Part shown: positions 5,910-30,854 of the stretch, piece after piece
Numbering within the stretch: position 1 is the first letter of the stretch
How the letters are laid out: each line of letters opens with the position of its first letter
Assembly (NCBI RefSeq): GCF_019689535.1
Contig: NZ_JADGHH010000008.1
Span: forward strand, 1-33,922
Length of the DNA: 33,922 nt
From: Pigmentiphaga sp.
GTDB lineage: Bacteria > Pseudomonadota > Gammaproteobacteria > Burkholderiales > Burkholderiaceae_B
Direction: 5' to 3'
Notes under the pieces: generated by a model
Databases searched by the model: none
What the model was told of the DNA's origin: nothing
The model's input: only the letters and a program-made list of their open reading frames with translations
Made by a program: the position numbers and the translations under genes

Positions 5910-5910
<1 letters not shown>
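5071..5910 (-). CDS. HAD-IA family hydrolase (pyrimidine 5'-nucleotidase-like)
   Basis: A 279-residue HAD phosphatase. Motif I is FDLDNTLHDAS (nucleophile Asp and acid/base Asp), motif II is LLTNAP, motif III is the Lys of FRVKPS, and motif IV is LVEDTSANLRAA. Sequence type and place next to argB match the proteins annotated as pyrimidine 5'-nucleotidases in this group; the actual substrate is not visible. About 57 residues before motif I form an Arg-rich extension (RRQVRKPLGRVRLARRP) that may be partly untranslated if a later non-ATG start is used. Its ATG (5910-5908) shares one base with the argB TGA (5912-5910) as TGATG, so translation is probably coupled to argB. Confidence 0.85.
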
Positions 5911-6872
<962 letters not shown>

Positions 6873-6901
6873 TCAATTGTAGCCACTGCACGGCCGGGCA
6901 T

Positions 6902-7101
6902 CCGTCCACAGGATATCCCGTCGCTATCCCCAGGCTTGCCCACAGCGTTCTACACAGCTTCTCCACAAGTGCGCGCGGCTTACCCACCGCTTTTCCCCAG
7001 GTAACGCACAGCTTGCCCACAGCCCATCCACACCCTTCTCCACAACTTTTCCACATGGATATCCCCTGCATTTCCACAGGGTTTCAACAGGCTTTCCCAC
7101 A
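6902..7101 (+). repeat. Phased array of DnaA-box-like 9-mers, about 18 slots at 11-12 bp
   Basis: Reading the plus strand, a 9-mer resembling the DnaA box TTATNCACA recurs with its last base at 6910, 6932, 6944, 6956, 6967, 6988, 6999, 7010, 7021, 7032, 7044, 7055, 7078, 7089 and 7101. Weaker slots are expected at 6921, 6978 and 7067; the first and last of these contain the same ATATCCC string. The mean step is 11.2 bp, i.e. 9-mers separated by 2 (sometimes 3) bases, all in one orientation. Best copies, one mismatch each, are TTCTACACA (6948), TTCTCCACA (6959 and 7036) and TTTTCCACA (7047). Two copies of TTGCCCACA occur (6936, 7013). Spacing by 2 bp in one direction is the arrangement known for low-affinity DnaA sites in E. 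coli oriC. DnaA binding here is inference. Confidence 0.7.
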
Positions 7102-7136: not shown

Positions 7137-7167
7137 TTTACCTTGCCACGATGTTAAGGTTTAGGAT
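7137..7167 (+). promoter_or_regulatory. CueR-type operator within a 19-bp-spacer promoter, driving cueR-cusF
   Basis: The inverted repeat ACCTT (7140-7144) and AAGGT (7156-7160) is separated by 11 bases, the same geometry as the E. coli copA CueR box. It lies between a -35 like TTTACC (7137-7142) and a -10 like TAGGAT (7162-7167). The spacer is 19 bp, the overlong spacer that MerR-family activators correct by twisting DNA. Transcription would start near 7174, giving an 85-base leader to cueR. Because it precedes cueR itself, copper-dependent autoactivation is likely. Confidence 0.7.
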
Positions 7168-7259: not shown

Positions 7260-7709
7260 ATGCAAATGCTGAATATCGGGCAGGCCGCTGCGGCCTCCGG
7301 CGTATCGGCCAAAATGATCCGTCACTACGAAGCCATCGGCCTGATCCCGCCGGCGCGCCGCACCGAGGCCGGATACCGCCTCTACCGGCAGAGCGACGTG
7401 CACACGCTGCAGTTCATACGCAACGCGCGCGATCTGGGCTTTTCCATCCCGCAGATCGCCAAGCTGCTTGCCTTGTGGAACGACCGCGAGCGCCCAAGCG
7501 CGGAAGTCAAGCGCTTGGCCTGCGACCACATCGCCGAACTGGAAGAAAAAATCCAGGGCCTGCAGGCCATGAAAGCCACGCTCGAACAGCTGGCCTCGCA
7601 CTGCCACGGCGACGACCGGCCGGACTGCCCCATCCTGGAGGGGCTGGCCACGCCCGGAATAGGCAGTCGCCGCGTGGCCGAAGGCGTCGATGTTTGTCAC
7701 GGATCATGA
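7260..7709 (+). CDS. cueR: Cu(I)-responsive MerR-family regulator CueR
   Basis: A 149-residue copper sensor. The N-terminal winged helix-turn-helix is typical (MLNIGQAAAASGVSAKMIRHYEAIGL, then RTEAGYRLYR). A dimerisation helix spans about residues 78-113. The metal loop is Cys115-x7-Cys123 followed by PILEGLA, the spacing and tail of CueR/HmrR sensors of monovalent copper, silver or gold. The C-terminal 18 residues beyond the usual end are not conserved-looking. The ATG at 7260 has GGAGG at 7248-7252, 7 bases upstream. A matching operator sits in its own promoter. The CusF-like gene follows after 98 bp on the same strand; no copper ATPase gene is in the window. Confidence 0.9.
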   Translation: MQMLNIGQAAAASGVSAKMIRHYEAIGLIPPARRTEAGYRLYRQSDVHTLQFIRNARDLGFSIPQIAKLLALWNDRERPSAEVKRLACDHIAELEEKIQGLQAMKATLEQLASHCHGDDRPDCPILEGLATPGIGSRRVAEGVDVCHGS

Positions 7710-8150: not shown

Positions 8151-9476
8151 CTACAGCACGTAGCGCGCCAAGTCCTGGTGCGCGGCCGTTTCTTCCAGCT
8201 GCTTGTTCACGTATTCGGCGTCGATACGCACCACCTCGCCGCTGCGGCGGGTCGCGTCGAACGACAAATCCTCCAGCAGCTTTTCCATGACCGTGTAGAG
8301 GCGGCGTGCGCCGATGTTTTCCGTCTTCTCGTTCACGGCATAGGCCAGCTCGGCCAGCCGCTCGATGCCGTCCTCGGTGAACTCGAGCTTCACCCCTTCG
8401 GTGGCCAGCAGCGCCGTGTATTGCTTGACCAGCGAGGCATCCGTTTCTGACAGGATGCGGACGAAATCCTTGGCCGTGAGCGACTCGAGCTCGACCCGTA
8501 TCGGGAAGCGGCCCTGCAGCTCCGGGATCAAATCGGACGGACGCGACAAATGGAAGGCGCCGGACGCGATGAACAGGATGTGGTCGGTGCGAACCATGCC
8601 GTACTTGGTGTTGACGGTGGTACCTTCCACCAGCGGCAGCAGGTCCCGCTGCACGCCCTGGCGCGAGACGTCCGAACCCGCCACGTCCTGACGCGTCGCG
8701 ATCTTGTCGATCTCGTCGAGGAACACGATGCCGTTCTGCTCCACGGCGGCCAATGCCTTCGCGCGCAAGTCTTCCTCGTTCACGCGCCGGCCGGCCTCCT
8801 CTTCGACCAGCATCTTGAAGGCTTCCTTCACGCGCAGCTTGCGCACCTTCTTCTTGCCCTGCGCCAGCCCCGCGAACATATTGCGGATTTGTTCCGTCAT
8901 CTCTTCCATGCCCGGGGGAGACATGATCTCCATCTGGGGCACCGGCTGGGCAACCTCGATTTCGATTTCCTTGTCGTCGAGCTGCCCCTCGCGCAACCGC
9001 TTGCGGAAAACCTGTCGCGCGGAGTTCTCCTCGCGCTGGGGGTTACCGTAGGCGTCGCGCGCAGGCGGCACCAGCACGTCGAGAATGCGGTCTTCGGCGG
9101 CATCCTCTGCCTGGGTGCGCACCCGCCGCATTTCAGCCTCCCGCACCTGCTTGACCGCGACCTCGACCAAGTCGCGGATGATGGTATCCACATCGCGCCC
9201 GACATAGCCCACTTCCGTGAACTTGGTGGCTTCGATCTTGACGAAGGGCGCATCGGCCAGCTTGGCCAGCCTGCGCGCGATCTCGGTCTTGCCCACGCCC
9301 GTGGGCCCGATCATCAAGATGTTCTTGGGGTGGATCTCATGCCGCAGCGGTTCGGGCACCTGCTGGCGCCGCCACCGGTTGCGCAACGCGATCGCCACCG
9401 AACGCTTCGCGCGGTCCTGGCCGACGATGTATTTGTCCAGTTCCGAGACGATTTCAGCGGGCGTCATCATGTTCAT
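8151..9476 (-). CDS. hslU: HslU, ATPase subunit of the HslUV (ClpYQ) protease
   Basis: A 441-residue AAA+ unfoldase that recognises and threads misfolded or regulatory proteins into HslV. The N-terminus [17 protein letters not shown] is diagnostic; Walker A is GPTGVGKT (residues 57-64), Walker B is [11 protein letters not shown], and sensor motifs lie near the C-terminal domain. The intermediate I-domain is present (from about [12 protein letters not shown] to RKLRVKEAF). The C-terminal DLARYVL is the tail that docks into HslV. ATG at 9476 overlaps the hslV stop as ATGA; ATGs at 9470 and 9467 are alternatives. Length matches E. coli (443). Confidence 0.97.
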
Positions 9477-10009
9477 TCCAACACCTCGACGGTGTGATGC
9501 TGATTGGTGTAGATGCAAAGATCGCCTGCGATGGCCAGCGACTTCCTGACGATTTCCTCGGGCGCAAGCTCGGTGTTCTGCAACAGGGCGAGCCCCGCCG
9601 CCTGGGCGTACGCACCGCCCGAGCCGATCGCGGCCAGCCCGTGCTCGGGCTCGAGCACGTCGCCGTTTCCGGTCAGCACGAGCGTCGTCTCGCGGTCGGC
9701 CACGATCAGCATGGCCTCCAATCTGCGCAATACCCGATCGGTGCGCCAATCACGCGTCAGGTCTACCGCCGCCCGCAGCAGGTGGCCCTGGTGCTTCTCG
9801 AGCTTGCCTTCGAAGCGCTCAATCAACGTGAACGCGTCGGCCGTGGCGCCGGCAAAGCCCGCCAGCACCGAATCCTTGTACAGGCGCCGGACTTTTCGGG
9901 CGCTGCCCTTCATGACGATATTTCCCAGGGTGACTTGCCCGTCTCCCCCGAGGGCAACCCGGTTGCCCCGACGCACGCTGACGATGGTCGTGCCGTGGAA
10001 TTGTTCCAT
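9473..10009 (-). CDS. hslV: HslV, peptidase subunit of the HslUV protease
   Basis: A 178-residue threonine peptidase, a proteasome beta-subunit homologue forming a double hexameric ring. After removal of the leader MEQFHG, the N-terminal nucleophile is Thr7 of [10 protein letters not shown]. The family strings [38 protein letters not shown] and [15 protein letters not shown] are clear. An AGGAA lies about 7 bases before the ATG. First gene of hslVU, read from a sigma32-like promoter at 10105-10136. The stop overlaps hslU by 4 bp, keeping subunit synthesis coupled. Confidence 0.97.
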
Positions 10010-10739: not shown

Positions 10740-10818
10740 AGGATGCAGCGGATCCGGCTTCGCCGGCCCCGTCCGCATCGCCCCCTTGGGGGGCGCGCGT
10801 CAGCGCCTAGAGGGGGCT
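10740..10818. repeat. REP-like cluster of GC-rich palindromes at the cobW 3' end
   Basis: Between cobW and dksA lie stacked inverted repeats: CCGGC-TTC-GCCGG (10754-10766), GCCCCC-TTG-GGGGGC (10780-10794) and GCGC-GTCA-GCGC (10795-10806). A final GGGGGC (10812-10817) can pair with the first C-tract instead. The element runs into the cobW TAG stop (10819-10817). It resembles intergenic palindromic elements I have seen in related high-GC betaproteobacteria, but that is from memory. Likely roles are 3'-end protection or termination; no T-run follows. Confidence 0.5.
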
Positions 10819-11953
10819 AATTCACCAAGCATTGCTCCAGGCCGTGCATGAATATGTCGCGGGGCAGGTTGCGGCCAATGAACACCATCTTGCTGCCGCG
10901 TTTCTCGCCCGGCGCCCACGGCCGCCCGGCGTCGGCGCCCATGAGCATATGCACGCCCTGGAACAACATGCGGCGGTTCACGCCCTTCATGTACAAGATA
11001 CCCTTGTACCGCAATAAATCCGTTCCGTACACCTGCACCACGCCGCCCAGGAATTCCTCCAGCAGCATCGGGTCGAACGGCTTGTCCGACTTGAAGACGA
11101 AGGCCCCGATGGCGTCGTCGTGGTGGTGATGGTGATGATGGCCATGGTGGTGACTGGGATCATTGCAGCCCTCCACCGCGCAGTGCTCGCCATGCCCATG
11201 ACCGTGGCCATGACCGTGGTCGTGGTCATGGTCATGATCGTGATCGTGGCCATGCTCGGCGGCGTCCGGATGTTCTTCGGACAAGAACTCAGGATCGATG
11301 TCCAGGATGGCGTTCAGGTTGAAGCCATTGATGTCCAGGATTTCCTTGAGATCGACCTGCCCGAAGTTGACCGGCGTGATCGGGGCACGCGGATTGATGC
11401 GCACCAGGCGCGAGCGCAGCGCCTGGTACTCGGCATCGCTCACCAGGTCCACCTTGGAAACCAGCAGGCGATCGGCGAACCCCACCTGATTGAGCGCCTC
11501 GGGCTGCTCGTCCAGGGTCTGCATGCCGTGCTTGGCATCCACCACCGTGATCACGGCGTCCAGCCTGAAGTGGCTGGCCACCTCGTCTTCCATGAAGAAG
11601 GTCTGGCAAACAGGCCCCGGATTGGCCATGCCGGTGGTCTCGATGATGACCCGTTCGAAGTCGATCGCGCCGAGGCGGCGCTTGTCCTTCAGGTCGATCA
11701 GGATGCGCACGAGGTCGCCGCGCACCGTGCAGCACACGCAGCCGTTGTTCATCTCGACGATCTGCTCGCCGCGCTCCTGGATCAACAAATCATTGTCGAT
11801 GCCTTCAGGCCCGAACTCGTTCTCGATCACCGCGATCCGGCGGCCGTGCTGCTCGGTGAGAATGCGATTGAGCAGCGTCGTCTTGCCTGCTCCCAGGAAT
11901 CCCGTCAGGACAGTTACCGGAATCTGCTTCGGTGTAGTGTCCGCAGCCTTCAT
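10817..11953 (-). CDS. CobW/COG0523 family GTP-dependent metal chaperone, probably zinc
   Basis: A 378-residue G3E GTPase. Walker A is GFLGAGKTT (18-26), the metal-site GCVCC follows IVEMNNG, the guanine motif is SKVD, and the C-terminal CobW_C domain covers about residues 285-378. Between the domains (about 226-280) is a long His/Asp/Gly-rich loop with many HD and HG repeats, two cysteines and a seven-His run, a strong transition-metal buffer. Members beside a Zur gene (ZigA, ZagA, YeiR types) deliver zinc in zinc-starved cells. Here it follows the zur gene by 37 bp on the same strand. Cobalamin synthesis, implied by the old family name, is unsupported by context. Confidence 0.88.
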   Translation of the reverse strand: MKAADTTPKQIPVTVLTGFLGAGKTTLLNRILTEQHGRRIAVIENEFGPEGIDNDLLIQERGEQIVEMNNGCVCCTVRGDLVRILIDLKDKRRLGAIDFERVIIETTGMANPGPVCQTFFMEDEVASHFRLDAVITVVDAKHGMQTLDEQPEALNQVGFADRLLVSKVDLVSDAEYQALRSRLVRINPRAPITPVNFGQVDLKEILDINGFNLNAILDIDPEFLSEEHPDAAEHGHDHDHDHDHDHGHGHGHGHGEHCAVEGCNDPSHHHGHHHHHHHDDAIGAFVFKSDKPFDPMLLEEFLGGVVQVYGTDLLRYKGILYMKGVNRRMLFQGVHMLMGADAGRPWAPGEKRGSKMVFIGRNLPRDIFMHGLEQCLVN

Positions 11954-30664: not shown

Positions 30665-30671
30665 GTCGCCA

Positions 30672-30769
30672 CCTGAGGAGCGTTGCGACGACCGGATGCC
30701 GGTCGCCAGGCTCAGGTTACGGACTGGCCGCAGCCGCCACGGCGGCGCCGGTCCCCGGCAACGGCGCTC
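30672..30769 (+). promoter_or_regulatory. SAH riboswitch upstream of ahcY
   Basis: P1 pairs CCTGAG (30672-30677) with CTCAGG (30711-30716). The conserved GAGGAGCGTTGCGAC follows the P1 5' arm. P2 is a perfect 7 bp stem (30689-30695 with 30699-30705) around ATG, then the conserved GCCAGGCTC. A long extra stem pairs 30721-30728 with 30747-30754 (one wobble) and, inside, 30733-30738 with 30741-30746. The pseudoknot pairs GAGCGTT (30678-30684) with GGCGCTC (30763-30769). Known SAH riboswitches upstream of ahcY in betaproteobacteria have just these parts and turn expression on when S-adenosylhomocysteine builds up. It should control ahcY and the genes behind it. Confidence 0.93.
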
Positions 30770-30854
30770 GCCCCCTATCCTGCCCTTTGCAGGCCGTGCG
30801 GCGAGCCATCCCGGTTTCAGCCGCGGCGTCAAGGGCAAGCAATTTGGAGTCCCC

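Follow-up and report, generated by a model that had tools for sequence, protein, structure and literature searches.

The window, by which we mean the whole analysed stretch of 33,922 bp from Pigmentiphaga sp., carries the divergent genes argB and cueR, separated by a non-coding gap of 420 bp that holds a long array of DnaA-box-like 9-mers (Table 1). At the likely -10 box of argB, ATTGTAGC is invariant across nine aligned sequences. The palindrome between the array and cueR is named for its likeness to the operator motif of CueR. The gene behind cueR presumably encodes a CusF-like protein, an identity assigned by eye. The window genome is an assembly of 340 contigs and 3.6 Mb, and its dnaA lies on other contigs.

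Table 1. Features in and around the argB-hslU interval of the window.
Feature	Position	Strand	Basis or remark
argB (acetylglutamate kinase)	5910..6839	-	NCBIfam TIGR00761; divergent from array
TACAAT, likely argB -10 box	6876..6881	-	Sequence and alignment; putative promoter element
18-slot array	6902..7101	+	Genus consensus TTKTCCACA plus GG/GC linker; step 11.24 bp
Degenerate slot within array	6969..6979	+	22-bp jump at the same place in all 8 other chained argB-cueR arrays
TTTTCCACA slot	7047..7055	+	Sole slot in window array matching TTWTNCACA exactly
CueR-operator-like palindrome ACCTTGCCACGATGTTAAGGT	7140..7160	+	Between array and cueR, distinct from array; conserved in alignment
cueR (Cu(I)-responsive MerR-family regulator)	7260..7709	+	NCBIfam TIGR02044
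Putative CusF-like copper-binding protein, 97 aa	7808..8101	+	Named by eye
hslU	8151..9749	-	NCBIfam TIGR00390 and synteny; far border of argB-hslU interval

A direct scan and a dynamic-programming chain both recovered 18 DnaA-box-like 9-mers on the forward strand of the gap, in agreement with the original prediction of about 18 same-direction copies at a period of 11.2 bp. Slot starts run from 6902 to 7093, with individual steps of 10-12 bp. The chain relied on a DnaA-box matrix set before looking, derived from the consensus TTWTNCACA, and the count of 18 excludes three weaker upstream 9-mers (6857, 6869, 6879) that were pulled into the chain. Mismatches to TTWTNCACA number zero in one slot, one in six, two in seven, three in two, and four and five in one slot each. 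Four slots (6948, 6959, 7036 and 7047) are a single mismatch away from TTATNCACA, which is the number of near-consensus copies claimed earlier. In the array and its edges, CCACA occurs nine times on the forward strand and never on the reverse strand. The window array reaches a chain score of 99.1 with the matrix, and simulated sequence, a control akin to the shuffling proposed beforehand, yielded no similar array. First-order Markov copies reached at most 22.2 for the whole window (40 runs) and 31.0 for the array region itself (1000 runs). In 400 kb of real DNA from a complete relative (20 x 20 kb), the best chain scored 32.1 and fell at the likely oriC of that relative. Column-permuted matrices scored 10.7 on average on the array region, with one of 300 attaining at least 50 (86.2). 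By allowed period, the chain score was 26 at 9-10 bp, 89 at 10-11 bp, 99 at 11-12 bp, 57 at 12-13 bp and 16 at 13-14 bp. The array is missing from the Tandem Repeats Finder output for the window. A periodic, same-strand array is confirmed as real and far beyond chance.

The array is present in all 12 Pigmentiphaga genomes examined, with about 10-22 slots each. These are 11 genomes of the genus and the MAG SCN 70-15 (filed as Rubrivivax), whose array is near-identical to that of MAG 67-32 and hardly independent of it. The named loci of P. kullae K24, P. humi, P. litoralis, two other Pigmentiphaga strains, MAG 67-32 and the Alcaligenaceae bacterium SAGV5 were each counted once. The array adjoins argB in 11 of the 12 genomes and cusF in the remaining one. 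Nine genomes show the order argB-array-cueR. Two others (G096 and G116) carry argB-array-copper ATPase-cueR-cusF with 11 chained units, the ATPase being named by eye. In G135, the order is hslU-cusF-array with 13 chained slots, and cobalamin-type and other genes fill the 11 kb up to argB. The array had at first appeared lost from G135 until a model search located it beside cusF. On the far side stands hslU in G000, G151, G096, G199 and G135, the five genomes whose stretches extend that far. The orientation of the array relative to the copper genes is constant across all these arrangements, and the gene that it precedes is cueR in nine genomes, the copper ATPase (by eye) in two and cusF in one. 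A copper gene is the constant neighbour of the array in Pigmentiphaga, and neither argB nor cueR is.

Outside the genus, the argB gap looks different. Among 80 argB loci scored, the eight of the genus have chain scores of 44-124; for the 72 others, the maximum within 4 kb of argB is 25.2. Arrays had been expected in the argB gap across Alcaligenaceae, and these 72 loci have none. A strict three-box pattern was too stringent for such searches. It missed ten of the 11 arrays of the genus and matched three genus genomes, with only the match in G000 being the array. R1 is a sequence-only model of four array units that was also run over wider genome groups. The long one-way array is the main R1 match in each of 11 Pigmentiphaga genomes, and extra short matches occur only in G190 and G096. 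The locus L195 (G190:C9) is a four-box array with 11-bp phasing. At the loci L042 and L043 (G096:C1:3855141 and G116:C1:4222766), an apparent priA-type coding region contains three TCCACA boxes in steps of 12 bp. In both genomes, the likely oriC is about 50 kb away.

The constant copper neighbour raises the question of local control. DnaA or another protein bound to the array might regulate argB, the copper genes or both, and tie them to the replication cycle. The position in a gap between divergent genes fits such cis-regulation, as does the same relative orientation ahead of cueR, the copper ATPase or cusF. However, the array persists at a distance of 11 kb from argB in G135, and cueR lies behind the ATPase gene in G096 and G116, which indicates independence of argB or cueR alone. 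A separate CueR-operator-like site exists downstream of the array, and control of a promoter would hardly call for boxes over 200-250 bp. Arrays in Achromobacter flank ssb and a methyltransferase gene, an amidohydrolase gene or a permease gene. We thus regard cis-regulation as rather unlikely. The suggested switch for argB or cueR in particular loses ground, since the array survives apart from either gene and similar arrays adjoin unrelated genes in Achromobacter. The array may still act on copper genes, one of which it always precedes in Pigmentiphaga. A purely replicative role does not predict this constant copper neighbour, which counts against titration.

The array units resemble the DnaA box. 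In the 11 arrays examined, without G135, CCACA occurs 2-13 times in forward orientation and never in reverse, and no TTWTNCACA was found on the reverse strand either. All boxes in these arrays thus face the same way, as is expected of datA. Among their 191 units, exact matches comprise one TTATCCACA, 11 TTTTCCACA and eight TTGTCCACA. Position 3 is G or T in 139 units and A in 35. Position 5 is conserved as C, whereas this position is free in the E. coli DnaA-box consensus. The preference at position 3, the single exact TTATCCACA and the constraint on position 5 count against reading the array as a DnaA-binding locus.

Divergence among genomes depends on the position within the unit. Nine argB-cueR gaps were aligned. 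Their array part spans 200 bp in the window, against 237-280 bp in each of the other eight. Large alignment gaps of 22, 23, 46 and 57 bp correspond to about 2, 2, 4 and 5 units, and the small ones measure 1 bp or, in P. humi, 6 and 5 bp. Among five close genomes, the pairwise difference is 0.000 at positions 6 and 7, 0.019 at 2 and 8, 0.029 at 5, 0.057 at 1, 0.086 at 9, 0.114 at 4 and 0.181 at 3. The linkers differ by 0.095, the DNA between array and operator by 0.173, the argB leader by 0.009 and the CueR operator region by 0.013. Under an a-priori split by TTWTNCACA, with positions 1, 2, 4 and 6-9 specified and positions 3, 5 and linkers free, variable columns amount to 13/147 versus 17/84 in five close genomes (p=0.024), 35/147 versus 37/84 in seven (p=0.0019) and 70/147 versus 61/84 in nine (p=0.00031), bearing in mind that columns are not independent and that 21 slots in P. 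kullae were recognised by their likeness to the box. CACA alone (positions 6-9) gives p=0.015, 0.0011 and 1.3e-6 for five, seven and nine genomes. A post-hoc split on positions 2 and 5-9, picked after the rates were known, gives 7/126 versus 23/105 in five genomes (p=3.0e-4), 23/126 versus 49/105 in seven (p=4.2e-6) and p=8.2e-9 in nine. The a-priori split is weaker than this and still significant. A neutral minisatellite, i.e. a repeat born by slippage and without function, could account for length differences of about whole units. Yet the difference rises from 0.000 at positions 6 and 7 to that of the linkers and the adjacent DNA, the array is kept in 12 of 12 genomes, and its copies are too diverged for recent slippage. 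A neutral origin is hence very unlikely.

The array lies away from the origin of replication. GC skew was sampled at 20 places of 20 kb each in the complete genome G151. Its sign changes between 5.64 Mb and 0, near 5.87 Mb in the mnmG region, and a second time between 2.7 and 3.0 Mb. The likely oriC is a cluster of boxes at 5.8863 Mb, at a distance of 15 kb from mnmG. The likely Pigmentiphaga oriC contains TTATCCACA boxes with A at position 3. It lies beside a Sir2-like gene named by eye (L180 16290-16500, L039 7300-7550). DNA similarity served to locate the corresponding cluster in other genomes; in G096, G116 and G135 it consisted of short matches only, all within about 15 kb of mnmG. The distance between array and oriC is 544 kb in G151, 417 kb in G043, 557 kb in G179, 596 kb in G096, 688 kb in G116 and, assuming a circle, about 661 kb in G135. 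The array hence lies 417-688 kb from the likely oriC in six of seven measurable Pigmentiphaga genomes, the exception being the draft contig of G199 with about 2.0 Mb between array and mnmG. G073, G166, G190 and G000 fall outside this set, as array and mnmG are on separate contigs or mnmG was not found. No consistent rule relating array strand to fork direction was found by eye.

Dense same-facing DnaA boxes are also a feature of origins, and the array might act as a secondary replication origin. We consider this extremely unlikely and reject it on GC skew. No sign change occurs around the array of G151 at 5.34 Mb, with samples at 5.1 and 5.64 Mb having the same sign. Inspection by eye of the window and eight relatives showed no evident AT-rich stretch for unwinding next to the array. 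The claim of a non-origin gap with no dnaA nearby is supported.

Among known control loci, datA is the closest in position. The E. coli locus is described in PMC5742627 as non-coding DNA at 0.47 Mb from oriC with essential DnaA boxes facing the same way, and minimal datA as three boxes and one IHF site that is required. A datA-like site would inactivate DnaA, with ATP-DnaA oligomers hydrolysing ATP aided by a DNA-bending protein. The same-facing boxes, the non-coding DNA and the distance of about 0.4-0.7 Mb from oriC agree with this. A second, weak DnaA-family match, an open frame of about 243-258 aa, is found in 11 of 11 genus genomes and looks like Hda, which makes a cycle of ATP- and ADP-DnaA plausible. 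Unlike datA as portrayed there, the array has about 10-22 slots with uniform 2-3 bp linkers, and both box number and spacing argue against the analogy. A scan of arrays and flanks for the IHF consensus with at most one mismatch found nothing in eight of 11 genomes and one match each in the other three. Two of these three matches share a position, though their arrays are nearly identical; a genuine site deviating by two or more mismatches would escape such a scan. With no conserved IHF match in the 11 arrays, the strict form of datA is rejected, and a looser datA-like role appears unlikely. DARS1 and DARS2 are likewise non-coding DnaA-box clusters, with boxes I and II head-to-head according to PMC5742627. 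No reverse box was found in the 11 arrays examined, which contradicts the DARS option on orientation.

Related arrays occur in other genera, mostly in other gaps. Searches with R1 that spanned more than 40 genomes used strict filters, under which weak matches are lost, and the counts for other genera are to be read as lower bounds. At E<=1e-4, 231 of 268 family genomes have no match, including 30 of 43 genomes of the genus Achromobacter. The family at large thus does not require the locus, which counts against titration. Among 399 genomes of the order (E<=1e-5), three others matched, namely G561, G359 and G508. The arrays of G561 and G359 have perfect TTATCCACA boxes, mostly with 2-bp linkers and 11-bp steps. 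The DNA there is AT-rich and has boxes in both orientations, and by eye these loci are origin-like. The third has a seven-slot array in an apparent rplI-dnaB gap, with genes named by eye (L200 6779-6854 in reverse-complement numbering, L191). This genome is a GC-rich order-mate, and its array stands ahead of the apparent gene of the replicative helicase dnaB. Among 369 genomes of the class (E<=1e-4), ten others matched, mostly with perfect or near-perfect box runs.

In Achromobacter (genus g4), 21 of 41 genomes matched at E<=1e-3 and 20 did not, and the arrays are shorter and in other gaps. Group A, in a gap beside ssb, comprises ten genomes, eight of which have two 7-slot arrays about 200-208 bp apart. 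The pair looks like a duplicated module. In L229, L210, L212, L242 and relatives from this gap, the two same-facing arrays are about 207 bp apart, and the fifth slot is degenerate in both. Group B comprises four genomes (G168, G226, G118, G227), and group C seven genomes, with an amidohydrolase gene adjoining in both that were scanned. Group D, beside an amino-acid permease gene, is found in G218, which also has A. Groups A, B and C do not co-occur in any of the 21 positives (E<=1e-3). Distances of group A to mnmG are 138 kb (G209), 96 kb (G215, G230) and 103 kb (G181). Those to the box cluster beside mnmG are 432 kb for B (G168, circle assumed), 21 kb for C (G231) and 23 kb for D (G218). Achromobacter arrays thus lie 21-432 kb from oriC or mnmG in seven of seven genomes measured. 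Closeness to the origin gives an exploratory, post hoc combined p of 2.0e-4 by Fisher's method, or 4.7e-4 with G199 representing Pigmentiphaga, using one genome per locus and the farthest measured if there were several. Arrays of G139 and G064, and probably G061 and G077, lie in oriC/mnmG regions and were excluded from the non-origin count, with G061 and G077 being placed by a similarity group shared with mnmG loci. In four Achromobacter genomes, the main box cluster is beside mnmG, and two or three further boxes stand about 11 kb away. The latter are perhaps at the same place as the Pigmentiphaga oriC. The genome G194 (g27) has a 12-unit array between genes for a beta-CASP nuclease and glucokinase (L231 6641-6778). 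Its units are near-identical CCACC units (TTATCCACCcgg x4), and this array seems younger than the others.

A protein other than DnaA could also read direct repeats of CCACA, as part of a plasmid-type centromere, replicon iterons or an MraZ-type repeat. The ParR/parC plasmid centromere has 11-bp repeats, and MraZ-type repeats have a 10-bp period. Direct repeats of 11 bp are hence known in such systems too, and four-box TCCACA arrays in the family adjoin an RPA replication initiator, perhaps in mobile elements. However, no partition or initiator gene was found among the 11 window ORFs scanned, the period is 11.24 bp rather than 10, and the unit resembles a DnaA box, with perfect-box versions at origin-like loci. 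Another reader of the repeats is quite improbable. The four-box arrays with 11-bp phasing (L234 6328-6383, L236 6952-6994, L204, L213, L214) have boxes like GCATCCACAggATGTTCACA...TTATCCACA. In L234 and L236, they adjoin the RPA initiator (Pfam PF10134) and are perhaps origins of mobile elements.

The array looks like one of the origin type, but with mostly weak boxes. Perfect-box arrays with the same step at origin-like loci of other genera support DnaA as the ligand, and DnaA is very probably what binds, judging from sequence. The identity of the boxes, their filament-like spacing of 2-3 bp and a non-origin control locus are the parts of the original prediction that gain from comparative evidence. 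Known oriC arrays are informative about the spacing. For two T. maritima DnaA boxes facing the same way, cooperativity of DnaA binding is strongest at a spacing of 2 bp (PMC10316083). Same-facing boxes support head-to-tail assembly of ATP-DnaA in E. coli and are not always needed for it in T. maritima, according to PMC10316083 and PMC5742627. The boxes of E. coli oriC and the direct boxes of T. maritima oriC are same-facing, like the array. Besides an unwinding element, the E. coli oriC contains five boxes in each direction (PMC10316083). The array differs in its off-origin location and in the number of slots, up to about 22.

Chromosomal titration offers a functional parallel. The E. coli chromosome titrates DnaA and has an excess of boxes close to oriC, and experimental evidence for titration was lacking until recently (PMC12371093). 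Accumulation of sites near the origin is common to both cases, but the E. coli sites described there are spread over a wide region and those of Pigmentiphaga are condensed into one array. In B. subtilis, removal of six non-origin DnaA-box clusters causes early initiation, and one cluster restored at various places partly relieves it (PMC5295017). The same review also states that, unlike in E. coli, no clusters of significant role have been identified in B. subtilis. Both the B. subtilis clusters and the array are non-origin, although the former occupy six loci and the latter is one long one-way array of mostly weak boxes. The array likewise has the makings of a DnaA-box cluster, with several DnaA-box-like sites in non-coding DNA, away from oriC yet usually proximal to it.

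On balance, we favour the array as an oriC-proximal, non-origin locus for DnaA titration that nucleates a one-way filament of ATP-DnaA. Of the options first offered, titration fits best, and a function in titration or timing seems somewhat likelier than not. With about 10-22 mostly weak same-facing boxes 2-3 bp apart, ATP-DnaA would assemble as a single head-to-tail filament. The best boxes (7047, 6959, 7036 and 6948 in the window) would nucleate the filament, and cooperativity would fill the weak ones. Affinity may be low, given G or T at position 3 in array units versus A in oriC boxes. At no more than about 0.7 Mb from oriC, the array would normally be copied early, and each round would double its sites and presumably withdraw DnaA from the origin. 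Such a titration or reservoir site could hinder premature re-initiation.

More speculatively, some Alcaligenaceae might possess a movable, DnaA-counting element. It would consist of about 7-22 deliberately weak, one-way boxes that are filled only once ATP-DnaA is high enough to polymerise, setting a sharp filament-based threshold of titration. The element would usually stay near oriC and change its gene neighbourhood by clade, on the argB side in Pigmentiphaga and in at least four other gaps in Achromobacter, and might substitute for datA/DARS in the family. We offer this tentatively, as a possibility that we would not bet on. A literature search found no report of such an array in Alcaligenaceae, a search that is weak for datA as the term also matches "data". 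In our judgement, control of DnaA outside E. coli and B. subtilis is largely open. Here a single short locus offers about 20 graded DnaA-like sites in filament register. It can be deleted, moved or trimmed by one unit at a time, so that filament-based titration lends itself to direct tests. The array would also be a natural substrate for measuring the length of DnaA filaments on double-stranded DNA.

Two further elements lie elsewhere in the window. An Rfam scan of the window returned a SAH riboswitch alone, at 30669-30776 on the forward strand (RF01057, 54.1 bits) and away from the array. It stands at the start of a 536-aa ORF, which is probably the gene for S-adenosylhomocysteine hydrolase. 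Short tandem repeats at 11191-11258 fall inside a CobW-family GTPase gene (10817-11953, reverse strand) and probably encode a putative metal-binding loop.
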